33,764 bases of DNA from a virus. The translations under genes were made by a program, and so were the position numbers. The notes below the pieces were generated by a model. That model saw nothing but the letters and a program-made list of their open reading frames with translations. It ran no database searches and had not been told where the DNA came from. Positions 1 to 33,764 of the stretch are shown here, piece by piece. Within the stretch, counting starts at the first letter, position 1. Each line of letters opens with the position of its first letter. The stretch is taken from the IMG/VR virus record IMGVR_UViG_3300037963_000397, positions 1 through 33,764 of that record, one strand, 5' to 3'.

Positions 1-297
1 ATTGTATTAGGTTCTATCGTAATACGCTCATATTCGCCCCAGAATCCCGCATCTATGATTGAATCGGTACTACCATAGGCATAGCAATCAAACTCTGGAA
101 TATAAATCATTTGAATCGGATTGTTAGCTTTTACCATATAAACATAATTTGGTTGCTCTAAGTCCGCCCAAACAATCGCAACACGACCTTGAACTTTTGG
201 CAATCTATCATCTAAAAATTCATCAACACTTCCAGAGGTTTCATACAATCTAAATATCGCCTCACTATCTACTTGAGCATATCTCTTCATATCGTAT
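1..297. repeat. Left copy of the imperfect terminal overlap
   Basis: These bases align without gaps to 33468-33764, with 11 mismatches in 297 (96.3% identity). The match lies wholly inside the glutamine amidotransferase gene and keeps its frame. Only two residues differ (Gly/Thr and Asn/Asp); the other changes are silent. It most likely marks circular closure of a permuted or concatemeric genome assembled from two closely related variants. True direct terminal repeats copied during replication would be expected to be identical. Confidence 0.9.
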
Positions 298-677
298 TTA
301 TGAAACAACTCTTTATGATTAGATATAGAACCATTATGAGTGCCTATAGTTTGACCTGTCCTAATCGGATGATTGTTACTATTGATTGATGGCGAACCTA
401 ATGTTGCATATCTAGTATGACCCATCATTGTAGTAATACCATCGTAAACCAAATCAATATTATCTTGAACTTCATTATCGCCAAAAAACTCATAAGCATC
501 TTTTGGTTTTTTGCATATTACATAATCCCCATACTTATCAATTAAAGCAAATCCTGTAGCGTGTCCACCTCTCATATCTGCTTCTGTAAGCATTTTAGAA
601 AAAGACTTTGAGACCCGATTAAGGGTCTCGTTGTCTCTAGTTTTTTGTTTTAGAATAACTCCTGCTAATCCACACAT
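1..677 (-). CDS. Class II glutamine amidotransferase (N-terminal part, cut by window end)
   Basis: Predicted Ntn-type glutaminase that releases ammonia from glutamine, or a related amidotransferase. The chain opens MCGLAGV, so Cys2 becomes the N-terminal nucleophile after Met removal. Further family motifs are RGGHATGF (residues 36-43), GHTRYATLGSP (86-96), HPI (103-105) and THNGSI (113-118). The start is fixed by GGAGG seven bases upstream of the ATG, two bases after the amidoligase stop. The frame is open to base 1 and continues in frame from 33764 down to a stop at 33254 if the genome is closed, giving about 296 residues. No synthase domain follows the glutaminase domain, so any ammonia acceptor must be on a partner, probably the adjacent amidoligase. 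The family call is firm; the substrate is unknown. Confidence 0.9.
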   Translation of the reverse strand, partial: MCGLAGVILKQKTRDNETLNRVSKSFSKMLTEADMRGGHATGFALIDKYGDYVICKKPKDAYEFFGDNEVQDNIDLVYDGITTMMGHTRYATLGSPSINSNNHPIRTGQTIGTHNGSISNHKELFHKYDMKRYAQVDSEAIFRLYETSGSVDEFLDDRLPKVQGRVAIVWADLEQPNYVYMVKANNPIQMIYIPEFDCYAYGSTDSIIDAGFWGEYERITIEPNT

Positions 678-679
678 TT

Positions 680-1690
680 TTAAGCCTCCACTTGGTTTGT
701 AGTTAGTCCATCTTGAACATAACTATATTGTTCATTTCTTCTATAATCATCTTCTCTAGCACTCAACTCTTTGAATCTTTTTAAAGAATAAGAACTAGCA
801 TCTTTTGTTCTTTGGTCTGTATCACAAACAACAAAACCGATAGCTTTTCTAAATCTCCAAAAACCTCTATTAACATCATTAGGAACATAGTTCATCTGAA
901 CGCTATTTGTATCTTCAACTGTATTTATTATAGCTTGAGTAAGAACAATCCAAGAAACAATTTTCTCAAAGTTTAAAGAACCATTGTGATATCTGAACTC
1001 AACACTACCTCTTGTCCAAACATTACGAAAGTTAAGACCACAAGCTCTCCTATCTTGTGCATAAGGATAAGTTTGACCCCTATCAATGCTAGTATCGTTA
1101 GAACTACCATATTTTCTATTACAATCTCTTTTAACTTTATAAACCATTTTAGCAACATCATCTTTGCTTAGTGTAGAACCATATCCAAAGAACTCTTGTC
1201 TAACTGGAGTGCTATAGCATCTACTATCTAATCTTGATGGAGAAACTAACTTGTAAATTAGATGCTCATACTTAGCAACAAATTTGATAAGGTTAGCTAA
1301 GAATTTTTCGCTTTGCTTCTTACCCTCAACCATCTTGTTAGTTACATCGTGATGAATATGAATACCACAAGTGTAATTCACTTCACAACCTACTTCATTA
1401 AGAACATCTAAGACATTCTTTAACTGCTCAAAACCATTTTCGCCATAAAGAATTGGAGAAACAATTTCATTATCTCCAACCAAACCTCTTCTGTATTGAC
1501 TATCATTTTCATTTACTGAGCAATCAGTAACAATTTTCCAATGTGGTCTAGTGATGTGGTTATATCCCTCTACCTCACATTCGACTGTAAGAGCATCACA
1601 TATATCTTGCTTAGAAACATTACTAGGTCTGATGTATTCAATTTCAACTCCAAAACCTCTATTATTATTAAAATTACCTTTTTGCATTTT
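680..1690 (-). CDS. Amidoligase (Amidoligase_2, GCS-like COOH-NH2 ligase)
   Basis: Predicted ATP-dependent carboxylate-amine ligase of the glutamine synthetase/gamma-glutamylcysteine ligase fold. Numbered from the upstream GTG at 1723, the motifs are GVEIEY (25-30), WKIVTDCSVN (62-71), DNEIVSP (84-90), CGIHIHHDV (119-127) and GSVEFRYHNGSLN (239-251), the last two typical of the family's active site. I place the start at the ATG at 1690 (336 residues) because GAGGA lies five bases upstream; the GTG at 1723 and ATG at 1717 lack an SD. The gene follows a 104-bp gap after the methyltransferase, which contains a TTGACT hexamer (1758-1753) but no clear -10. It is followed after two bases by the glutamine amidotransferase gene. 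The substrate is not visible; a gamma-glutamyl or peptide amide bond is the family expectation. Confidence 0.85.
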   Translation of the reverse strand, partial: KMQKGNFNNNRGFGVEIEYIRPSNVSKQDICDALTVECEVEGYNHITRPHWKIVTDCSVNENDSQYRRGLVGDNEIVSPILYGENGFEQLKNVLDVLNEVGCEVNYTCGIHIHHDVTNKMVEGKKQSEKFLANLIKFVAKYEHLIYKLVSPSRLDSRCYSTPVRQEFFGYGSTLSKDDVAKMVYKVKRDCNRKYGSSNDTSIDRGQTYPYAQDRRACGLNFRNVWTRGSVEFRYHNGSLNFEKIVSWIVLTQAIINTVEDTNSVQMNYVPNDVNRGFWRFRKAIGFVVCDTDQRTKDASSYSLKRFKELSAREDDYRRNEQYSYVQDGLTTNQVEA

Positions 1691-1794: not shown

Positions 1795-2694
1795 TTAGTC
1801 GATAAATTTGGGATTTCCTTTACAAAATACTAAAACATTTTGATGAATTTTGACTACTTTTTTGTAAGTCATATTATTATCTGCTCTTAAAGCTGCAGTT
1901 GTAGCTTGATTTTTTAATATAATTTCATTGTAAAACCTTAATCCGCATTGTTCAAAAAGTGTTATAGTTATTCCTACTAAATCAATTATAAAACCATCTT
2001 TATCCCTTATGTTTCCAACAACAAAACAAGCAAATCTATTATCTTTTAATAACTTACAACATTTTAGAATAATTGCTTTATAAGCAATATAAAAATTGAG
2101 GTAATCCATATTGCTTAAATCTTTTATATTGTTAGAGTAAACTTCTAAATTATAATATGGTGGGCAAGAAAAAATAAAATCAAAAGTCTTATCAAATTTA
2201 TCTAACTCTGTGTAACTATCTCCAATTATCCATTCTGGTATATTATCTGGTATTATTCTTAATGCTTGATTTTGATTAGATAATATTTGCTCCTCTTTTA
2301 AATCAATTCCAGTATATTGATAATCTAAATAGTTAGCAACGATTCCTCTTACACTACCACCCGCAAATGGGTCTAATATTGTTCCATTAGGTATTACAAA
2401 CCAATTATAGATTATTTCACATAGTACAGGGTCAAATATTGAAACATAAGGATTTTTTGTAGTTGTTTTATTAGATTTAAGGTTTATTAATTGTCTACTG
2501 CCAGTCATTCTTTGATAAGAATTTTTATTTTGTCTACCTACTTCACTTTCAATCCCTAATGATTTCCATTTGTTTTTCCTATTTTGCCAATCGCCACTAG
2601 CGGTATCAAATATAGAGAATGGTGGAATTAAATATTTTCTTTTTAGACTATTAGGTTCAATAATTTCATTTCCAAATAAATCAAGATTCTTCAT
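1795..2694 (-). CDS. DNA N6-adenine/N4-cytosine methyltransferase (orphan)
   Basis: SAM-dependent amino-methyltransferase acting on phage or host DNA. Motif I is LDPFAGGSVRG (107-117) and the catalytic motif IV is SCPPYY (176-181). Motif I precedes motif IV by about 60 residues, which leaves room for target recognition near the C terminus or N terminus and suggests a gamma-like order. Length is 299 residues. The start overlaps the previous gene's stop as ATGA and has GAGG four bases upstream. No restriction endonuclease lies beside it, so it is more likely an orphan enzyme that protects phage DNA or marks it than half of a restriction-modification pair. The SCPPY form does not settle whether adenine or cytosine is methylated. 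Confidence 0.88.
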   Translation of the reverse strand: MKNLDLFGNEIIEPNSLKRKYLIPPFSIFDTASGDWQNRKNKWKSLGIESEVGRQNKNSYQRMTGSRQLINLKSNKTTTKNPYVSIFDPVLCEIIYNWFVIPNGTILDPFAGGSVRGIVANYLDYQYTGIDLKEEQILSNQNQALRIIPDNIPEWIIGDSYTELDKFDKTFDFIFSCPPYYNLEVYSNNIKDLSNMDYLNFYIAYKAIILKCCKLLKDNRFACFVVGNIRDKDGFIIDLVGITITLFEQCGLRFYNEIILKNQATTAALRADNNMTYKKVVKIHQNVLVFCKGNPKFID

Positions 2695-15378: not shown

Positions 15379-16367
15379 TATCGTCTAGTCATTTGCACTC
15401 GTTTAATTGGTGTAAACATTTGGTCAGTTGTGCCACTAAATTCTAATTCCCACTCATCTGATGCTGTGTACACTCCAGCCGAAAATCGTACATAGAGGTT
15501 ATGACCCACTAATTGCCAGTAACAATCTATTACTTCATCATTAGCCATTTGCTCTAATTTCAATCCATTTTCATTGCCTATAAAAGAATTAAACTTTACA
15601 GTTGTATTTGCGACTCCCTCGGTTATTGTGCCACCATTACTAATTATAATTTTTATTTTATCCCACGAATAGCTTGGTGTTCCTTTTACATCTACAATCC
15701 CACCAGTAGAGCTTCCATTTTGACTTATAGTTCTAATTATGCCACGCTTTTTATATTCACTTTCGCTAGAATAGATATGAACTTGTCCAGTTCTTAGCAT
15801 ATCTAAATAGCCAGTTCCTTGTTCATTTATTGCTTGGCTTAATATCTGGTCTGCTTTTTCTACATCGTAAGGTCTAATCAAAGACTCACAAGCTAAAATA
15901 GCACAACTTCTTACAATAATTTCTGGAAAATCTCGCTCTGTACTATCTTGCGTTCCCACTCCTTTGTTAGGATAGATTGGAAATGGTAAATATCCTCGAA
16001 TAAAATCACTAGCTCTTTTTACCGCATCTGTTTTTAATGTTACCCAATCGCTAGATGCTTCAACCATACTTGAGTTTAAAGTGTTAGCACTTCCACCATT
16101 TTGATATAGCTCTAATAAATCTGTTGATGCAGTATAGCGATATTCGTTATCAGCATTTGGAGCATCTGTTACCGCAGTCATTTCTTGTCCATCTAAATAT
16201 AATTGACCACTTACATCTCCGCTATTATATAAGTAAAATAGATGCGTTGTCCCACTAGCTACCCAATTACTAGCTAAAACTCTTTTTCCATCGTATTGAC
16301 CTATATTTGGCTCTACAAATAATAAGTCTGTTGTGGTATTACAATATGTTGTTTCAAATGTACTCAT
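15378..16367 (-). CDS. Head-tail connector-like structural protein
   Basis: Residues about 112-200 hold a helical segment (DAVKRASDFIRGYL, then EIIVRSCAILACESLIRPYD, then KADQILSQAI) that resembles head-tail adaptor proteins of the HK97 gp6/DUF1320 kind. N-terminal (1-105) and C-terminal (220-329) parts are beta-rich, so the protein is about twice the usual adaptor length. It may combine an adaptor with a decorating domain. It overlaps the phosphoesterase stop by four bases and precedes the tail terminator candidate. A binding surface for the portal ring is expected but not visible. Confidence 0.5.
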   Translation of the reverse strand: MSTFETTYCNTTTDLLFVEPNIGQYDGKRVLASNWVASGTTHLFYLYNSGDVSGQLYLDGQEMTAVTDAPNADNEYRYTASTDLLELYQNGGSANTLNSSMVEASSDWVTLKTDAVKRASDFIRGYLPFPIYPNKGVGTQDSTERDFPEIIVRSCAILACESLIRPYDVEKADQILSQAINEQGTGYLDMLRTGQVHIYSSESEYKKRGIIRTISQNGSSTGGIVDVKGTPSYSWDKIKIIISNGGTITEGVANTTVKFNSFIGNENGLKLEQMANDEVIDCYWQLVGHNLYVRFSAGVYTASDEWELEFSGTTDQMFTPIKRVQMTRR

Positions 16368-17443
16368 ACTTTTTTCTTACGCTTAAATGTTAGATAATCC
16401 GCAGCTTCATACGGATTAAAAAATGTTGTGATTAACCTATTGTCATCATCATCATATTTAGGGTCTATAATCGTAACTGGAGCATTAAATATATTCTTAT
16501 CATCTAAGCCAAGTTTATTAGCGTATTCATCCATATTCTTAAATGATGCCACTTGAATTGCGTGGCTTATTAATCCAGATGCAGGGTCTTTTAATACTTG
16601 GTAGCCACTAATATGAGTATGACCCGCAGTTAAGATGTGGTCTCGCCATCCAGTTTGCACCGCCCTACTAATTGCGTGAGCAGTATTCCACATTGAATTA
16701 CCTTTAAATTGATGTCTAGCATTGACCCTAATACATTTTCCATTAGGAAATTTAAGATTCATTCTTGCTCCGTGTTGTTTATATAATGCCTTTTTATCAC
16801 GCATAATAAACTCCAAAGGGTCTCCATCCCCACTCCAAACATCGTGGTTTCCTGCTATCAAATATAACCAATCTACACTATTTAAGAAATGCTCTGATAT
16901 TAGCCACGATTCTTTTGCAGTTGTTGATTGTTGTCCGTGCAAATATGTCAATCTGCCTACCCAATTATTTTGCACATCCCCTAAATTACCCGCAAACAAT
17001 CCATCTGTTCCACGAATCAAATCACATAGAGAATAAACTTCTGCTAAGTTTGTTCCATCATCATCAATGTGAGGGTCTCCAAAATGACATATCCCAATGA
17101 CTCCAGTTTTATTAATTTGTATATCAATTAATTCTCTTTGTTTATACGCATCATATTTTTGAACATATCTCTTTTTACGATATTCAATAATATCATCAAT
17201 GTTCATTTCCTCAATCGGTAAATCTTGAACACTAAAGTCATTCCCTTGTATTATTACTGGATTCAATGTTTTCTTTCCGCAATCATTACAATAATATCTT
17301 TGCCTTTTTCTATTATTCTTCCAATATTGCCATCCATCTTTTCTAATGTTCTCACTTTGACAATTTGGACAAGCTACTAAATTTCCTTCTGGGTCTTTTG
17401 TTGGTTGTTTAGTAATCCCATTAGGTTGTTTTTTATTACTAAT
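16364..17443 (-). CDS. Zinc-ribbon metallophosphoesterase, probable ATT start
   Basis: Calcineurin-like phosphoesterase acting on a phosphodiester or phosphomonoester, possibly nucleic acid. Numbered from the ATT at 17443 (359 residues), metal ligands are GDPHID (122-127), Asp156 in GNLGDV, GNHD (198-201) and GHTHIS (274-279). In front lies a zinc ribbon, CPNC (25-28) and CNDC (52-55), of the type seen in transposase and nucleic-acid-binding proteins. The first ATG/GTG/TTG in frame is a TTG at 17266, which would delete the zinc ribbon and has only weak SD. GAGGAG lies six bases before ATT. The frame is also continuous with the endolysin past its TAA stop, so readthrough is an alternative. The enzymatic family is certain; start and substrate are inferred. 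Confidence 0.75.
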   Translation of the reverse strand: MSNKKQPNGITKQPTKDPEGNLVACPNCQSENIRKDGWQYWKNNRKRQRYYCNDCGKKTLNPVIIQGNDFSVQDLPIEEMNIDDIIEYRKKRYVQKYDAYKQRELIDIQINKTGVIGICHFGDPHIDDDGTNLAEVYSLCDLIRGTDGLFAGNLGDVQNNWVGRLTYLHGQQSTTAKESWLISEHFLNSVDWLYLIAGNHDVWSGDGDPLEFIMRDKKALYKQHGARMNLKFPNGKCIRVNARHQFKGNSMWNTAHAISRAVQTGWRDHILTAGHTHISGYQVLKDPASGLISHAIQVASFKNMDEYANKLGLDDKNIFNAPVTIIDPKYDDDDNRLITTFFNPYEAADYLTFKRKKKV

Positions 17444-17446
17444 ATT

Positions 17447-17881
17447 TTACTCCTCAACTAATTCATAGTGTAATAAATCGTCAAAAGAATTATCACTTGT
17501 AGTCCTAACTTCTTTTCCCATCATTACATTTTTATCAAGGCTAGGCGATGACCAATCCCCGCCCCAACGAATGTTTACACCCATTGAAGCTGCGACACCT
17601 AAAACGAATCCGCCCAAATAATGCCAATCATCTCTATTTTCCCAATCTATTTTTTTAGTGCGGTAGTTATATGGGGCTATATCCACCGCCAAACCTTGAG
17701 TATGTTTGCCAAACTTGGTCTTAGATTTTCCTTGTGCCAACAATTCGTTTTGTCTTTCCTGACTTCGCAAACCCTCTATGACTGTAATATCATAATATTT
17801 CACCACTTTTTGTAAGACTGATACAAGTCTAGGGTCTACGCCTTTCAGTCTTTTCATACTTCTTCGACCAAGTTTAGGCAT
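17447..17881 (-). CDS. Endolysin, M15 L-alanyl-D-glutamate/D-Ala peptidase
   Basis: Peptidoglycan peptidase that opens the cell wall at lysis. Numbering from the ATG at 17881 (144 residues), motifs are EGLRSQERQ (36-44), the zinc site HTQGLAVD (60-67) with His and Asp ligands, and the C-terminal HYEL with the third ligand. WHYLGGF and the GGDW segment fit the VanY/M15 fold. The start shares a base with the stop of the preceding gene (TAATG); a GTG three codons upstream is less likely. It follows three membrane-type genes, a typical lysis cassette. Confidence 0.88.
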   Translation of the reverse strand: MPKLGRRSMKRLKGVDPRLVSVLQKVVKYYDITVIEGLRSQERQNELLAQGKSKTKFGKHTQGLAVDIAPYNYRTKKIDWENRDDWHYLGGFVLGVAASMGVNIRWGGDWSSPSLDKNVMMGKEVRTTSDNSFDDLLHYELVEE

Positions 17882-18111
17882 TACTTCCACACCATTCTGA
17901 TTGCGACAGATAAGATGTCCATACTTTCTTTTGCGATAGCTTGTTTCTCTTTTGCAGACAATTTACCATCTTTCATAGCTTCATTATATTTTTCAGCTAC
18001 ATCTTTAAATTCTTTTAAAATAGGTCTCCATTTAACTGCTACAACGCTCATATATCCACCGATTAAAATAGCAACTAAGTACGCAAAATTACTTAACGAT
18101 AACCATTCCAT
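17881..18111 (-). CDS. Membrane protein, holin candidate (76 residues)
   Basis: One N-terminal transmembrane segment (FAYLVAILIGGYMSVVAV, residues about 9-26), then a charged helical cytoplasmic or periplasmic part rich in Lys (KLSAKEKQAIAKE). GGAGAG precedes the ATG. It lies directly upstream of the endolysin, where holins usually sit. Two other small membrane proteins follow upstream, so which one makes the hole cannot be decided here. Confidence 0.55.
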   Translation of the reverse strand: MEWLSLSNFAYLVAILIGGYMSVVAVKWRPILKEFKDVAEKYNEAMKDGKLSAKEKQAIAKESMDILSVAIRMVWK

Positions 18112-20122: not shown

Positions 20123-20446
20123 TTAAAGTGCTTTTAAGTCTTTTTCTAGTTCTTCCCAATCAGCTTGTTCAGCTTGTGCTTGAGATACTCTATCTTTACA
20201 AGATTGAATTTCTCTAGCTACTTGGTCTAAGCTAAAAGATTGAACTGAGTCATCTAGTGCTTTACCGCTATTTGGGTCAAACTGCTTTTTAACTAGTTGT
20301 AATTCATCGTGAGATTGCTCTGCTTGTGCTGTTCTTACAACATTTCCGTCATCATCTTTGACTTCAGAAACTGCTGGAGAATCAACAATCTTAGCTTTCT
20401 TTACTGACCAACTTTTAGCAGATTTCATTGCTTTATAGTTTTTCAT
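20123..20446 (-). CDS. Small Gln/Asp-rich helical protein, 107 residues
   Basis: The C-terminal half is a heptad-like helix (VAREIQSCKDRVSQAQAEQ, about 75-93, ending LEKDLKAL), suggesting a trimeric or dimeric coiled coil. The N-terminal half is charged. It begins on the last base of the fiber gene's stop, so it is co-translated with the fiber and may be a fiber chaperone or clamp. No family is recognised. Confidence 0.6.
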   Translation of the reverse strand: MKNYKAMKSAKSWSVKKAKIVDSPAVSEVKDDDGNVVRTAQAEQSHDELQLVKKQFDPNSGKALDDSVQSFSLDQVAREIQSCKDRVSQAQAEQADWEELEKDLKAL

Positions 20447-23400
20447 TATTTATCCTTGAGTTGTTGTTTTAATTGATTTACTTCGGTGCTTAGTTCCTGC
20501 ACCGCATTCACTAATGCCCAAATCATTGGTTCTTGATTAGCTGATAACCATTCGCCATCATCTTTAATCATTTCAGGCAAAACTTTTTGTGCTTCTTGAG
20601 CAATAATTCCTTGTCGCTTTTTATCGGAATCATACTTATATGGATTGTCTTTTTTAAAGTTATATGATACAATTCTTAGATTATTTATTGCATCTAAACC
20701 TACATTCCAATCTTCAACATTTTCTTTTAATCTACCATCAGATGTAGTACTCCAAGCAGAACCATTATCGCCCATAAAAACATCTGCACAACTTGAGTTA
20801 CCAATGATAGCACTATTATCTTGAACTCCACTTGCACCTTTACCAATAACAATCTGATTTGCTCCACCACTTGCAGATGGGTCTGCTCCTTGTCCAATAA
20901 TAATATTGTCTGAACCAGTAGCAATTAAATCTCCTGCATTAGCTCCGAGTGCTGTATTGTTTTGACCTGAAGTTTGATTTTTTAATGCGTGATGTCCGAT
21001 AGCAGTTGCATTTGAAGTGGTAGTTCCACCACCACCGCCTTCTAATGCTGAGTTTCCTATAGCAGTGTTATTACTTCCAGTAGCAAATAAACCACTATAA
21101 TATCCAAGTGCAGTATTATTTTCATTACTTGATAAATACCTCAAAGACTCATAACCTACCCCAGTGTTTCTAGCACCCGATGTAAGTTGTTTTAATGCAG
21201 ACCTACCTACACCTACTGAACCATCAGCATTATTATTATCAATATTATTTAATGCCTCTGAGCCAACAGCAACAATATCATCTACATCTTGATTATTTCC
21301 ACCAGTTCCAGCATTATATCCAATACAAGTGTTATGGTCATTGCCAGTATTATTAAATCCTCCACCTGCTCCTGAACCAATACAGGTATTATAATCACCT
21401 TCAGCATCAGCATCTAATGCTCGGTAACCTATTGCTGTATTATGAGTGCCAGTTGTAAGAGACTTTCCTGATTCATATCCAACAGCAGTATTGCCATTGC
21501 CTGAAGTAAGTGCAGTAAGGGCGTTTGAGCCTATCGCTATTGTTCCTACTTGCCCATTTGCTCCAGTTGAATTTAAAGCCTCATCTCCAATAGCTATATT
21601 ATCTGTTACTACTTTTTCAGCATTATTAAAATCTGCTCCCCTAAATGAGTTATAACCTAATGCTATATTTCTATCAAATCTTGTATTAGCGTGAACATCT
21701 CCAGTTCCACCTTGAAATGCTTCCATTGCACTTACGCCTATTGCAATATTTTTAGTACCACCATTATTACTATCATCGCCTTTGTAGTCTTTCATTGCAA
21801 GATTACCGATAGCAATGTTATATGCTCCAGCTATATTATCTTTTAAAGCTCTTCTACCTATTGCAGTATTGTCTGTTCCACCATTTAATGCTAATAATGC
21901 ATTACTACCAATAGCAGTATTATAAGCCCCAGTTGTATTTGCTACTAATGCTTGATATCCAACCGAAGTATTATGACCTCCACTTGTATTGGCTTTACTG
22001 GCTTGATATCCTATATAAGTTCCACCTTCTGCATTATTGTGATTAACTGCTGAACCAGCACTATGTCCAACTGCGGTCATATTACTTGTAGTTGTTAAAG
22101 CATCTAAACTATAAGAACCTAAAGAAACATTATTATTGCCAGTTGTAACTTGATAAAGAGCATCTGAACCTAGAGCTACATTTCCGTACCCTTGGGTGAT
22201 TGTAGTTCCTGCCCTATTGCCGATTATGGTGTTATTACTACCTGTGGTGATAGCATACATACTCTGATATCCGATACTAACATTATTATATATGCTTGAA
22301 GTTGATGAACCACTACCATTCATTGCACTATTACCAATAGCAATATTATTTACTATTGCTTCGTCAGCTGGGATTGATGCCATAACCCCACTACCTACAC
22401 CAACATTTCTACTGCCAGTAGTTAATGCTGTCATTACATTTCTACCAATAGCCGTATTTTGACTACCAGTAGTTGTATTTTTTAACGCTTGATACCCAAA
22501 AGCATCATTTGTTCCTGAAGTAAGAGATTGTAATGCTTGTTGCCCTATCGCTATACTTCCATCAGCCCCAGATGTCATTGCACCTTGAGCAGTAAATTTA
22601 CCTATAGCAACCACACCATCAGCCGAATTACTAGCATTATCCATACTGGTTTGACCAATAGCAATATTATTATTTCCAGTAAGTGATTCTCCAGCTTGTT
22701 GTCCTATTGCTATATTATGGTCAGTTGTACTAGCATTTACTGATTGCATAGCTTCAAAACCTATTGCAATATTATAATTTTCACCACTATCAGCAGATGC
22801 TAAAGCAGAAAATCCAATAGCAACATTTGCTATGTTATCTGTTGCAGAAGATAATGCACTTGAACCTATGGCAATATTTCTAATCCCATCAGTAAGAGCC
22901 AATAGTGCATTTTTACCAATACCAACATTATCTGCTCCGTCATTTGCTTCGCTTGAATTACCTTTTAATGCTTGATAACCTATGCCAACATTACTAGCTC
23001 CATCATCCATATATAAACCAGCATAAGAACCAAGATAAGTATTAAATGATGGTGTTGCTCCACCAGCTACCATATTCGCACCAGCTTGATATCCCAAAGT
23101 AGTGTTATCTGTACCACTTACTAAATCTTTTGAGGCTTCAAATCCTATGGCAGTATTTCTAGCACCTGAAGTAAGTGCAGTAAGAGCAGAATGCCCTATT
23201 GCCACTGCACCATTCATTGGGTTTGTACCAGTAGAATTAAGAGCGTTGTTACCTATTGCTATATTAAACTCAAAGCTACCTGATGATGGTTGACCACCAG
23301 TCATAGTATTTTGACCTATAGCAATATTATGATTTGTATATTGACTACCACTAGAACCTTTTGCAACTGCACTCATTGCCCCAGCTCCAATAGCAACATT

Positions 23401-25158
23401 TCCTGACTCTGTTGTTAATGCTTTAGCTGAATCTGCACCGATTAAGACATTTGCTCCACCAGTTAATAAAGCAAGACCAGCATTTGAACCCATAATAGTA
23501 TTGTTATTTGCTGCACCTTCTAAAACTGCTCCAGCATTTGCTCCTATAGCAGTATTATGAGAGCCAGTAATTCCAGCACTAGCATTACCACCCAAAGCAT
23601 CATAACCTAGTGCGGTATTATTATCTCCAGTTGTAACCCCTAATCCAGCATCGAAACCAATTAAAGTTGATTTTTCAGCATCTGATATAGAAAATCCTGC
23701 TCTATAACCTACCGCAGTGCTTCCCGAAGCAGTAGTTGTTGATGTCAAAGCCTGATAGCCAACTGCGGTATTATTACTATGAGAGTTTCCACTTACACCA
23801 GCTAATGCAGAATGTCCTACTGCGGTATTATATTGTCCAGTAACATTATGATATGATGCTACATTTCCTATAGCGGTGTTATAACTTACTGTATATGCTG
23901 AACTAAAATTTTGTGAATTTAGTGCATTTAAACCTACTCCTACACTACCAGCTCCACGAGTATCTGACTGACCAGCTCGTTTTCCTATCAAAACATTCTC
24001 ACCACCATCATTCATTGATTTTGCAACTTCCCAACCAATGACAGTATTGCCATTAGCATTCCCTGAAGATTTTAATGCTTGATTACCAATAGCTATACTC
24101 TGACCGCCAGTAAGTGTTTTACCTGCTTCATAACCTATAGCAAGATTTTCATCGTGAGTAGTAGATGTAGATAAAGCGTGATGCCCAATAGCAATATTTT
24201 TATCTCCAGTTGTTATTGCAGTTAAAGCACTTGAACCAATCGCTATGTTACTAACTCCCTCGCTTATTGAAAGCATTGCTACATCGCCTACTGCGGTATT
24301 ATCAGAACCTGTTGTTATATTTTGTAATGCTTGAACACCAATTCCAATATTTTTAGAAGCAGTTTTAGTCCCACTTGATGCTCCAAGCATAGCCGCACTT
24401 CCAATAGCAACATTACTATCATTAGCCGCATTATTTAATTGCCTACCAGCAGTATTACCAATATAAACATTATTAGCAGACCCTGAAACAAGATTTTCAC
24501 CCGCTTTGTAACCAAAGAGGGTATTAGCTGTACCAGCATCATTATTATTAAGACTAATGCGAGAGTCGAGGTCAAGAATTAATTTAGCACTAGCAACTTG
24601 AAAAGTCATTTTGTCGCCATCGTGATTATATCTTATGCCACCTCTTGAGCTATCGTCTGCATCTCCAAAAAATACGCCTGTTTCTTTATCGGCTGGTGAT
24701 TTTATAGTAATTCCAGCGTGGTCGCTATTTTCAATTACAAGTTCATCTGCTTGATTAAATATTGCACTAGAACCACCAGCAGAACCTGAATAAATGTGAG
24801 CTTTACCACTAGGCGAGGTTGTGCCTATTCCAAAATTTTGCCCATTATTTATGTAAGATGCTGTACCAGTATGAAAGAGAAAATCTGCATTACCAGCAGT
24901 GTCTCGCATTGTTAAAGAGCCATCACCGCCTGAACTTTCATCAAACCTTAATAATTCTATGCCATCAGATGCTTTAATTAGAAATATAGCAGAATCAGCA
25001 GAGTTTGATTCTATGCTAAGAGTACCTTCAATTATCTCATCAAATGCAAAACTACCAGCACCCTCAACTTTAAAATCTCCAGTAACTACTAAATCGCCAT
25101 CAACTGTCCCACCACTAGCTAAACCAGCACTTACATTACTTATCATTGATTTTAGCAT
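20446..25158 (-). CDS. Giant trimeric tail fiber with YadA-like repeats and S74 chaperone
   Basis: A 1570-residue host-recognition fiber. Residues about 1-205 are an attachment region with a segment of GVFFGDADDSSRGG. Residues about 208-1462 are dozens of head repeats of the YadA/trimeric autotransporter kind (core NTAIG.NAL, about 20-25 residues each). The last 98 residues are an intramolecular chaperone of the S74 family: SDGRLKENV (1473-1481) contains the catalytic Ser-Lys pair that cleaves the chaperone after trimer folding. The protein likely projects as a left-handed beta roll. Unlike most phage fibers, the gene lies between capsid and lysis genes rather than next to the tail tip. Confidence 0.92.
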   Translation of the reverse strand: MLKSMISNVSAGLASGGTVDGDLVVTGDFKVEGAGSFAFDEIIEGTLSIESNSADSAIFLIKASDGIELLRFDESSGGDGSLTMRDTAGNADFLFHTGTASYINNGQNFGIGTTSPSGKAHIYSGSAGGSSAIFNQADELVIENSDHAGITIKSPADKETGVFFGDADDSSRGGIRYNHDGDKMTFQVASAKLILDLDSRISLNNNDAGTANTLFGYKAGENLVSGSANNVYIGNTAGRQLNNAANDSNVAIGSAAMLGASSGTKTASKNIGIGVQALQNITTGSDNTAVGDVAMLSISEGVSNIAIGSSALTAITTGDKNIAIGHHALSTSTTHDENLAIGYEAGKTLTGGQSIAIGNQALKSSGNANGNTVIGWEVAKSMNDGGENVLIGKRAGQSDTRGAGSVGVGLNALNSQNFSSAYTVSYNTAIGNVASYHNVTGQYNTAVGHSALAGVSGNSHSNNTAVGYQALTSTTTASGSTAVGYRAGFSISDAEKSTLIGFDAGLGVTTGDNNTALGYDALGGNASAGITGSHNTAIGANAGAVLEGAANNNTIMGSNAGLALLTGGANVLIGADSAKALTTESGNVAIGAGAMSAVAKGSSGSQYTNHNIAIGQNTMTGGQPSSGSFEFNIAIGNNALNSTGTNPMNGAVAIGHSALTALTSGARNTAIGFEASKDLVSGTDNTTLGYQAGANMVAGGATPSFNTYLGSYAGLYMDDGASNVGIGYQALKGNSSEANDGADNVGIGKNALLALTDGIRNIAIGSSALSSATDNIANVAIGFSALASADSGENYNIAIGFEAMQSVNASTTDHNIAIGQQAGESLTGNNNIAIGQTSMDNASNSADGVVAIGKFTAQGAMTSGADGSIAIGQQALQSLTSGTNDAFGYQALKNTTTGSQNTAIGRNVMTALTTGSRNVGVGSGVMASIPADEAIVNNIAIGNSAMNGSGSSTSSIYNNVSIGYQSMYAITTGSNNTIIGNRAGTTITQGYGNVALGSDALYQVTTGNNNVSLGSYSLDALTTTSNMTAVGHSAGSAVNHNNAEGGTYIGYQASKANTSGGHNTSVGYQALVANTTGAYNTAIGSNALLALNGGTDNTAIGRRALKDNIAGAYNIAIGNLAMKDYKGDDSNNGGTKNIAIGVSAMEAFQGGTGDVHANTRFDRNIALGYNSFRGADFNNAEKVVTDNIAIGDEALNSTGANGQVGTIAIGSNALTALTSGNGNTAVGYESGKSLTTGTHNTAIGYRALDADAEGDYNTCIGSGAGGGFNNTGNDHNTCIGYNAGTGGNNQDVDDIVAVGSEALNNIDNNNADGSVGVGRSALKQLTSGARNTGVGYESLRYLSSNENNTALGYYSGLFATGSNNTAIGNSALEGGGGGTTTSNATAIGHHALKNQTSGQNNTALGANAGDLIATGSDNIIIGQGADPSASGGANQIVIGKGASGVQDNSAIIGNSSCADVFMGDNGSAWSTTSDGRLKENVEDWNVGLDAINNLRIVSYNFKKDNPYKYDSDKKRQGIIAQEAQKVLPEMIKDDGEWLSANQEPMIWALVNAVQELSTEVNQLKQQLKDK
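20449..20742 (-). other. Peptidase_S74 intramolecular chaperone domain
   Basis: Encodes residues 1473-1570 of the fiber: SDGRLKENV with catalytic Ser and Lys, then the conserved RQGIIAQEAQKVLPEMI segment and a coiled-coil end (STEVNQLKQQLKDK). Domains of this type assist trimer folding and then cut themselves off. Confidence 0.9.
20772..24540 (-). repeat. Array of coding repeats of the fiber
   Basis: About 3.8 kb encoding more than 50 degenerate 20-25-residue repeats with the recurring core N-T-A-I-G and A-L. Repeats vary in sequence and length, so the array is a protein repeat and not a CRISPR or a recent tandem expansion. Irregular insertions (for example GADFNNAEKVVTDN) interrupt some turns. 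Recombination between units could change fiber length between relatives. Confidence 0.85.
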
Positions 25159-32097: not shown

Positions 32098-32388
32098 CTA
32101 TTTGGAACTATAATAGGGTTTAAATCGCATTAAAGTGAGTATCTTAGGTGTTATATTGATTGACTCTTCTTTTGGCTTGTATAACGCTTGAACTAATTTA
32201 GGGTCTCTGTTAGCTAATTGTTTTAATCTTATATCTATATCTCTTAATAATTCTTTGAGCGTGTTGCCAACCGCAGCTTTGTAATCAAACCCATCTTTAG
32301 TTTCATACATAATCTCAGCGTGATATAAATAATCGTGATTTACTTTACGAATATCCATAAGCCTCTGTTTGATAAGTATAATCGCCAT
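32098..32388 (-). CDS. Unknown 96-residue protein (or 86 residues from 32358)
   Basis: Mixed alpha/beta protein (HDYLYHAEIMYETKDGFDYK, then LKELLRDIDIRLKQLANRD). The upstream start at 32388 has no SD; an internal ATG at 32358 has AGAGG only three bases away, so the start is unsure. It overlaps the previous gene. After its stop lies a 96-bp AT-rich gap (32002-32097) with a TATAAA run but no confident promoter, before the AT-hook gene. Function is unknown. Confidence 0.55.
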   Translation of the reverse strand: MAIILIKQRLMDIRKVNHDYLYHAEIMYETKDGFDYKAAVGNTLKELLRDIDIRLKQLANRDPKLVQALYKPKEESINITPKILTLMRFKPYYSSK

Positions 32389-32509
32389 TTATCTTTGCCA
32401 CCGCTTGTATTAGTTCCATTGTAGTTATTTCATCAGTCCCAACTGTAACTAACAATTCTTCAAACTCTTCAAAAGATAATATAGTTACTAAATATTCGTC
32501 TAATTCCAT
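32345..32509 (-). CDS. Acidic 54-residue protein
   Basis: I start it at the ATG at 32509 (MELDEYLVTILSFEEFEELL), which overlaps the end of the zinc-ribbon gene; a GTG at 32545 lies inside that gene. The product is strongly acidic and helical. It follows the glutamyl-chemistry module. Acidic micro-proteins sometimes act as inhibitors or carriers, but no function is shown. Confidence 0.55.
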   Translation of the reverse strand: MELDEYLVTILSFEEFEELLVTVGTDEITTMELIQAVAKINGDYTYQTEAYGYS

Positions 32510-32643
32510 ACTGGATATTTTTCTTTGCAGGTAGTACACGCCCACCTTATTTTGTTTCCCTTGTTTTGTCTGTCTACAATCGTTACTTGCTCCTCACAAA
32601 TACTACATATTATAGAATCTATATATTCGTTATCTAAACTCAA
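32500..32643 (-). CDS. 47-residue zinc-ribbon protein, TTG start
   Basis: Two Cys pairs, CSIC (13-16) and CTTC (36-39), form a compact zinc ribbon; around them are acidic and Lys-rich segments. The TTG at 32643 overlaps the cyclotransferase stop as TTGA, and the gene ends overlapping the next ATG. Strong coupling to the enzyme module makes it a candidate accessory of that module, or simply a small regulator. Confidence 0.55.
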   Translation of the reverse strand: MSLDNEYIDSIICSICEEQVTIVDRQNKGNKIRWACTTCKEKYPVWN

Positions 32644-33257
32644 TATTCATTCCATAAACGATAATTGTGAATTGGCTCTTTGAACTCAGTAACTACTCCA
32701 TTGATTATACAATCTCTTAAAAATATCTCTTCATCTTCAGTATTCAAATCTAAATGACTTCTTCTTTTTACCATATCCATATAGATTTTATTTGTTGGTG
32801 TTCTTTGCCCATCAAAAAACCTCAAATGAAAAACCAATTTATCTGCTTTATCTGTGTAGTTACGATTGTCTATTATTAAGTTCAAATCAACTTCTCTTTT
32901 AGTTTTCCAATATCCACTTGCTATTTTATCAAGCTCTTCATCCCAAACGACATTCCCATATTCTTTATTAAAAAGATAATATTGAAAGCCTAATTTAGAA
33001 TCATTAACACGAGTGTATAAATACCCCTCGCTTTCAAGCATATCTAATTTAGCTAGTGTTGTGCTAGTTATGCGATAGACTTCTCCATATACTTTATCGC
33101 CTTTACTTTCTATAAGTAATGGAAACCCAAATTGATTTGGTTGATAAATAGCGTGGTCTTTTAAAATCTCGTGCCTAACAAAATCACTATCTTTTAAGAA
33201 GTGATGATTGCTACCACCTTTTTTTAATGTACCATATACGAATACTTCTGTTGTCAT
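32640..33257 (-). CDS. Gamma-glutamylcyclotransferase-like (AIG2/GGCT) protein with long C-terminal extension
   Basis: Enzymes of this fold release gamma-glutamyl groups as 5-oxoproline. The substrate loop VFVYGTLKKGGSNHHFL (5-21) and the acidic catalytic position Glu75 in LDMLESEGYLYTR (71-83) are present. The fold ends near residue 110; about 95 further residues (from GYWKTKREVDLN to the end) form an extension not seen in the basic family. The ATG overlaps the glutamine amidotransferase stop as ATGA. In context it would remove or recycle the gamma-glutamyl groups that the amidoligase forms, or act in its synthesis route as BtrG does in butirosin. Family is firm; reaction is inferred. Confidence 0.85.
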   Translation of the reverse strand: MTTEVFVYGTLKKGGSNHHFLKDSDFVRHEILKDHAIYQPNQFGFPLLIESKGDKVYGEVYRITSTTLAKLDMLESEGYLYTRVNDSKLGFQYYLFNKEYGNVVWDEELDKIASGYWKTKREVDLNLIIDNRNYTDKADKLVFHLRFFDGQRTPTNKIYMDMVKRRSHLDLNTEDEEIFLRDCIINGVVTEFKEPIHNYRLWNEY

Positions 33258-33764
33258 TTTATTTTCCTTATTATTGAACCATCATTTGCTTTGAACATTT
33301 TTAATTGGTCGCTATATGAAAACCTCGGAACGAATCTTTTAACTGTTTGAGGTTCATCTTTATACGCTCCAATCTTTGAATCATAGAACGAATATCTTTT
33401 TAACTTTGGTTCTTTTATCTTAATCTTCTTTGTGTCAATCTTTAGTGTCTTAGTATTAATCCTAACCATTGTATTAGGTTCTATCGTAATACGCTCATAT
33501 TCGCCCCAGAATCCCGCATCTATGATTGAATCGGTACTACCATAAGCATAGCAATCAAACTCTGGAATATAAATCATTTGAATCGGATTGTTCGCCTTTA
33601 CCATATAAACATAATCTGGTTGCTCTAAATCCGCCCAAACAATCGCAACACGACCTTGAACCTTTGGAAGTCTATCATCTAAAAATTCATCAACACTTGT
33701 AGAGGTTTCATACAATCTAAATATCGCCTCACTATCAACTTGAGCATATCTCTTCATATCGTAT
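33254..33764 (-). CDS. Class II glutamine amidotransferase (C-terminal part, cut by window end)
   Basis: Same gene as 1-677, seen from the other side of the break. The frame here is open to 33764 and lines up exactly with the left copy (ATG at 33757 equals 290, in frame). It encodes the second half of the glutaminase domain: VDSEAIFRLYE, then GRVAIVWADLEQPDYVY and CYAYGSTDSIID, then a basic C-terminal tail with KIDTKKIKIKEPKLKR and ending RKIK. Relative to the left copy it has Thr for Gly and Asp for Asn, from 11 base differences. The stop overlaps the cyclotransferase ATG. Confidence 0.88.
   Translation of the reverse strand, partial: YDMKRYAQVDSEAIFRLYETSTSVDEFLDDRLPKVQGRVAIVWADLEQPDYVYMVKANNPIQMIYIPEFDCYAYGSTDSIIDAGFWGEYERITIEPNTMVRINTKTLKIDTKKIKIKEPKLKRYSFYDSKIGAYKDEPQTVKRFVPRFSYSDQLKMFKANDGSIIRKIK
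33468..33764. repeat. Right copy of the imperfect terminal overlap
   Basis: Second copy of bases 1-297 with 11 mismatches. The offset is 33467, so the closed genome would be about 33,467 bp. Most mismatches are silent, pointing to two natural variants and not to random sequencing error. Confidence 0.9.

Follow-up and report, generated by a model that had tools for sequence, protein, structure and literature searches.

The question raised by this locus is what a phage could do with an amidoligase, a class II glutamine amidotransferase (GATase) and a gamma-glutamylcyclotransferase-like protein of the GGACT/AIG2 type encoded one behind the other. The genes lie at the two ends of IMG/VR record IMGVR_UViG_3300037963_000397 (the window, that is, the whole stretch of 33,764 nucleotides analysed here), and the question of function is therefore preceded by that of how the ends are to be joined.

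Closure of the Genome

Positions 1-297 and 33468-33764 of the window are identical at 286 of 297 bases without a gap, which is to say that one region is present twice; the circle therefore closes at 33467/1 and its size is 33,467 bp. The 11 mismatches between the two copies hit nine codons, of which seven are changed synonymously, and they look like two variants within one population. An overlap that is imperfect to this extent is invisible to an exact end-repeat check. The record is catalogued as linear and is probably a complete circular genome.

The original prediction was that the three genes form an operon split by the contig ends, with base 33764 joined to base 1 and the glutaminase running from 677 to 1 and then from 33764 to 33254. 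Since 297 is a multiple of three, this join remains in frame and seems plausible; it was nevertheless dropped, as it gives a GATase of 395 aa with a false in-frame tandem duplication of 99 residues. The join at 33467/1 gives a GATase of 296 aa, the same intact length as in 7/7 closest relatives, and in these relatives the trio (amidoligase, 296-aa class II GATase, GGACT protein) is uninterrupted. The linkage of the three genes was thus borne out, and the place of the junction was not.

A physical genome end inside the GATase gene was also rejected: the gene is intact in the relatives, and where these carry end repeats, the repeats are at other places. Exact repeats of this kind were seen in two relatives, measuring 123 bp in the one of 34,214 bp and 114 bp in the one of 34,159 bp; their location agrees with circular or permuted genomes. 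The norm is therefore a circle of about 34 kb, and the GATase gene was interrupted by an accident of the assembly.

The virus is a tailed phage with a small genome, the window ORFs including matches to terminase, major head protein, tail fibre and tape measure. A tRNA scan found no tRNA genes in the window, and a promoter scan yielded predicted promoters that were no more frequent than, or below, the shuffled background. Among the other genes, the 1570-aa protein at 20446-25158 has repeated tail spike/virion structural PHROG matches, in up to 14 stretches; this repetition suggests internal repeats in what is probably a host-recognition protein. Among the tail genes, 16364-17266 has a DNA repair exonuclease PHROG match (1.2e-34) and a weak calcineurin-like phosphoesterase match. 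Positions 17447-17890 (gene 17890-17447) encode a probable endolysin with a Peptidase_M15_4 domain, of the stem-peptide-cutting type, whose action could change if stem peptides are altered.

The Cassette and Its Neighbours

The features of the locus, in the order of minus-strand reading, are as follows.

1795-2694, minus strand: DNA methyltransferase upstream of the cassette (PF01555, 1e-12)
680-1687, minus strand: amidoligase (Amidoligase_2, predicted GS-fold carboxylate-amine ligase), 335 aa (PF12224, 2.3e-31; PHROG 2443)
1-677, minus strand: GATase, N-terminal part, with its ATG at 677 and Cys2 as nucleophile (PF13522, 2.5e-16)
33468-33764, no strand: redundant contig end, a second copy of 1-297 with no additional coding sequence
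33254-33467, minus strand: GATase, C-terminal part, which joined with 1-677 makes 296 aa
32640-33257, minus strand: two-domain GGACT/AIG2 protein, 205 aa (PF06094, 1.1e-20, residues 5-118), in ATGA overlap with the GATase stop
32643-32897, minus strand: partner domain at the C-terminal end of the GGACT protein (residues about 121-205), with homologues among small stand-alone proteins encoded directly after amidoligases
32500-32643, minus strand: zinc-ribbon ORF, 47 aa, TTG start, overlapping the GGACT stop, in the closest clade only
32345-32545, minus strand: downstream ORF, 66 aa, position conserved in the closest clade
32098-32388, minus strand: downstream ORF, 96 aa, position conserved in the closest clade

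The trio genes are each about 1 kb or less, and both the two-base gap between amidoligase and GATase and the ATGA overlap between GATase and GGACT protein are as had been predicted. The amidoligase start is a different matter: it had been placed at 1690, and the ATG is at 1687, preceded by a GAGGA motif. Beyond the GGACT gene come three small, overlapping ORFs (47, 66 and 96 codons), with the terminase genes further along. The cassette occupies the border between replication and packaging genes, outside the structural genes. The 47-residue zinc ribbon had been proposed as a possible member of the unit. It is likely to be co-transcribed with the trio, but its membership is unsupported outside the closest clade.

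The gene on the other side is less constant. The slot at 1795-2694 is variable: one relative has at this place (L006, 6087-7884) a different methyltransferase, of the cytosine-C5 type by sequence reading, and the methyltransferase of the window was not found in three others (L005, L007, L008). The upstream methyltransferase is therefore an interchangeable neighbour, outside the cassette. Its presence just upstream of the trio might have pointed to DNA hypermodification or anti-restriction, in which the ligase would put amines on a base or base precursor. The trio stays while the methyltransferase slot differs between relatives, which speaks against such a role, and there was no match to a thymidylate-synthase-like protein, a base hydroxymethylase or a nucleotide kinase among the ORFs scanned; this explanation is highly improbable.

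Another possibility is counter-defence: a small metabolite with a glutamyl or carboxylate group, acting as a signal or as a toxin, would be removed or masked by the cassette. Small enzyme cassettes of this kind are common in the accessory regions of phages; the trio proteins match no defence-related models (PADLOC), however, and this role is very unlikely.

Three Enzymes under Purifying Selection

All three families named in the original prediction were recovered with Pfam matches beyond the curated cut-offs, and the PHROGs results agree. The amidoligase scores 110 bits for PF12224, where the cut-off is 22, over positions 2-244 of the 245 in the profile. Its residues E15, E17, D55, E74, H110, E230 and R232 are invariant in up to 168 relatives, and H112 and R152 are nearly so. 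The PDB contains no sequence relatives of this protein, and its AF2 model is of moderate quality (pLDDT 65.6); the top PDB matches of the model in Foldseek, GshF, glutamine synthetase and YbdK, nevertheless all belong to the GS-fold ligases, with a TM of about 0.4. By family and fold, it is predicted to be an ATP-dependent carboxylate-amine ligase.

The GATase, which exceeds the cut-off of GATase_6 (PF13522), has GlmS-like residues, Cys2, Arg89, Asn115, Gly116 and Asp137, that are invariant in 84-86 relatives. No synthase domain was found behind its glutaminase domain, the last 71 residues being without a confident Pfam match, and its scores against the NCBIfam models of GlmS, PurF and AsnB are far under the cut-offs. 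As judged from its sequence, it is a free-standing class II glutaminase without the synthase domain of GlmS, PurF or AsnB.

In the GGACT protein, which is likewise above its cut-off (PF06094), Y8 and G9 of the YGTL motif and E75 are kept in 39 of 39-40 relatives, and E75 aligns with the catalytic Glu82 of human GGACT. Its AF2 model is very good (pLDDT 92) and is matched in Foldseek by PH0828 and human GGACT; the family and the model together predict a cyclotransferase that releases 5-oxoproline. The expectation that the active-site motifs would be kept thus proved correct, the residues being essentially invariant in 168, 87 and 40 relatives, respectively, with no loss. Compared with five relatives, the dN/dS values are 0.26-0.34 for the amidoligase, 0.06-0.15 for the GATase and 0.15-0.26 for the GGACT protein, and the whole trio is under purifying selection.

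Dependence of the GATase on the Amidoligase

Co-occurrence was surveyed in 68 distinct viral GATase loci, which were gathered from the GATase alone. An amidoligase is present in 67/68, and the exception is a locus that starts inside the GATase at a contig end; in 54/68, the amidoligase ends no more than 150 nt upstream of the GATase. When the amidoligase is taken as the starting point, by contrast, more than half of the loci have no GATase match. The near-obligate linkage therefore holds in one direction: the GATase depends on the amidoligase and not the reverse, a pattern to be expected of a GATase that works for the ligase. In three loci (L155, L162 and L166), two amidoligase genes flank one GATase gene.

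The GGACT protein is found in 10/10 records of the close clade and in 9/29 distant records with GATase and amidoligase; its absence from about two thirds of the latter indicates that it is dispensable for the core reaction. These counts are raw with respect to shared ancestry, and many of the records are fragments. The co-occurrence of the families in phages, which had been predicted, is hence confirmed, with the GGACT protein as the looser member.

A tentative reading, to which a probability of about 0.45 may be given, is that the trio is a glutamine-fed phage amide-bond cassette with a remover of gamma-glutamylamines, and that it acts on peptides of the host envelope. The class II GATase would hydrolyse glutamine and supply the released ammonia to the amidoligase, a GS-fold enzyme whose gene lies 2 nt upstream; the amidoligase, using ATP, would activate a carboxylate, likeliest a side carboxylate of glutamyl or diaminopimelate in a peptide, and make an amide. 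The GGACT domain would take off gamma-glutamylamine adducts as 5-oxoproline, while the C-terminal domain attached to it may either tether it to the amidoligase system or replace one of the subunits of that system. As to the target, the best guess, from the chemistry of the families and from a published suggestion (see below), is a peptide of the host envelope, in the peptidoglycan stem or its precursor; nothing at the locus singles out the envelope, however, and no cell-wall biosynthesis gene adjoins the trio. A change in the envelope during infection might lead to the exclusion of other phages or to a tuned lysis. The general scheme of the original prediction, with its ligase, glutaminase and cyclotransferase chemistry, is plausible as far as the sequences go.

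A Partner Domain Fused to the Cyclotransferase

The original prediction did not notice that the cyclotransferase has a conserved domain at its C-terminal end, and this is the part about which least is known. Residues about 121-198 form, in the AF2 model, a well-conserved domain of the order strand-strand-helix-helix-helix-strand. It has no significant match in Pfam, PHROGs or NCBIfam and no clear fold match in the PDB with Foldseek, where the GGACT part alone was matched. A search of BFVD with the GGACT model gave a single full-length match, a viral protein of 202 aa that is 64% identical.

Using a single-pass profile of this domain against 22,785 ORFs, 42 matches to proteins other than GGACT were obtained at E <= 1, and 35/42 are encoded just downstream of an amidoligase. 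Among ORFs of 70-150 aa, 28/35 domain matches are in this position compared with a background of 1.5%, a comparison that is descriptive since it ignores kinship among the sequences. The fused and the stand-alone domains were related to each other by a profile-profile comparison (93.8% probability, E 1.7e-07). An iterated search then found the stand-alone protein, of ~80 aa and directly behind the amidoligase, in 50 of the 79 amidoligase loci that have no GATase and extend far enough downstream, Bacteroidota loci among them. One locus (L088) has all four parts unfused, as neighbouring genes: amidoligase first, then GATase, small domain and GGACT, an arrangement that looks like the state preceding the fusion.

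In many loci of Bacteroides, Prevotella and Phocaeicola (L177-L202), the gene directly after the amidoligase encodes the partner domain as a stand-alone protein; the copy in Phocaeicola vulgatus adjoins a Mu-like transposase, in a Mu-like element.

The main rival to the envelope-peptide model starts from this domain. It supposes that the amidoligase couples an amine, which could be glutamate or ammonia, to a protein or peptide, perhaps a virion protein or the small domain itself, and that the GGACT protein reverses this tagging. The domain does adjoin amidoligases even where there is no GATase, and in the window it is fused to the GGACT protein; the GS-fold ligases include the Pup-related Dop, which is a weak structural match (rank 38) to the amidoligase model; and in a Porphyromonas phage (L013), the pair of amidoligase and small domain lies among head and portal genes. 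In the window, however, the cassette lies away from the structural genes, at the replication/packaging border, and the small domain has no evident conserved C-terminal Gln/Glu tag motif. Tagging of proteins or peptides is accordingly rather unlikely. A stronger form of the idea, in which the domain would represent an unrecognised small family of amidoligase partners, separate or fused to GGACT, that might be a substrate-recognition subunit or a modification acceptor, the cassettes being tagging systems with an eraser, is unlikely.

Comparison with Known Systems

The set of amidoligase, GATase and GGACT is already known in phages, and the version here is a compact one with a GGACT fusion. In RIO-1-like podoviruses (PSA-HP1 ORFs 40-47), the genes were described as a 'peptidoglycan modification cassette', with the suggestion that a change in the cell wall acts against superinfection (PMC5498523). 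Both that cassette and the one in the window cluster an amidoligase, a glutamine amidotransferase and a gamma-glutamyl cyclotransferase. The RIO-1-type cassette further includes a second amidoligase together with an enzyme of the ATP-grasp type (PMC5498523), neither of which was matched among the window ORFs scanned with Pfam, and the cyclotransferase of the window has an extra C-terminal domain. The gene set and the hypothesis of cell-wall change and superinfection have thus been published for other phages, and the novelty is lower than the original prediction claimed; the new part is the fusion of GGACT with an undescribed small domain, which elsewhere is a separate gene beside the amidoligase.

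Other phages vary in arrangement. In UFV-P2 and other LUZ24-like Pseudomonas phages, a PF12224 amidoligase, a PF13522 GATase and an AIG2 protein lie within about 5 kb (PMC3890496). In UFV-P2, HNH and ATP-grasp genes are scattered between the three, and a COOH-NH2_lig (PF14395) gene lies upstream, whereas the trio of the window is contiguous; PF14395 had no match in the window or in nine relatives, though the control genomes gave none in that search either. The GATase of UFV-P2 has 486 aa, as against 296 in the window, and its AIG2 protein of 131 aa is too short for the extra domain. The Arthrobacter phages Waltz and Laroye/Salgado (Laroyevirus; MG099950.1; see also PMC5513430) have the same three families as neighbouring genes, but their order is GGACT-amidoligase-GATase, the identity to the window proteins is about 23-32%, and the GGACT protein, of 155 aa, is without the partner domain. 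The marine OM43 phages MEP401/402 (PMC10580990) share the PF12224 and PF13522 genes with the window phage, GGACT being unmentioned.

Related phage cassettes have been read as peptidoglycan-modifying (PMC5498523, PMC10580990), and the roles proposed for phage amidoligase sets, as predictions, are either superinfection exclusion or nitrogen metabolism (PMC5498523, PMC10580990, PMC10945688). The second of these would make the trio an auxiliary metabolic module that directs ammonia and glutamate towards the making of amino acids or of compounds like glutathione and so raises the use of nitrogen by the host. It was suggested for Phage-ZRK32, which has an amidoligase, a GATase, a GGCT and a gene of the glutathione-synthase type (PMC10945688); the growth effects reported there belong to the whole phage and not to these enzymes. 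Among the window ORFs scanned, there is no glutathione-synthase/ATP-grasp gene. Moreover, hosts usually have ample glutamine and glutamate metabolism of their own, which also counts against this explanation, and it is quite unlikely.

For the envelope-peptide model, cellular analogies exist. MurT-GatD and LtsA/AsnB carry out glutamine-dependent amidation of the D-Glu or mDAP of peptidoglycan, and their working is analogous to that proposed here in that a glutaminase and an ATP-dependent ligase amidate a stem-peptide carboxylate. The likeness is one of working and not of descent into the same families: GatD is a class I enzyme, MurT is a Mur ligase and AsnB-type enzymes use an asparagine-synthase domain, whereas the trio of the window lies outside the MurT-GatD and LtsA/AsnB families.

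Implications

The domain fusion marks which proteins work together, and a set as compact as this one suits expression and assay. If the cell-wall idea is true, phages would enzymatically rewrite the peptidoglycan of their hosts during infection; if, on the other hand, the small domain serves as the carrier or the target, the cassette would represent a new kind of peptide-modification module.
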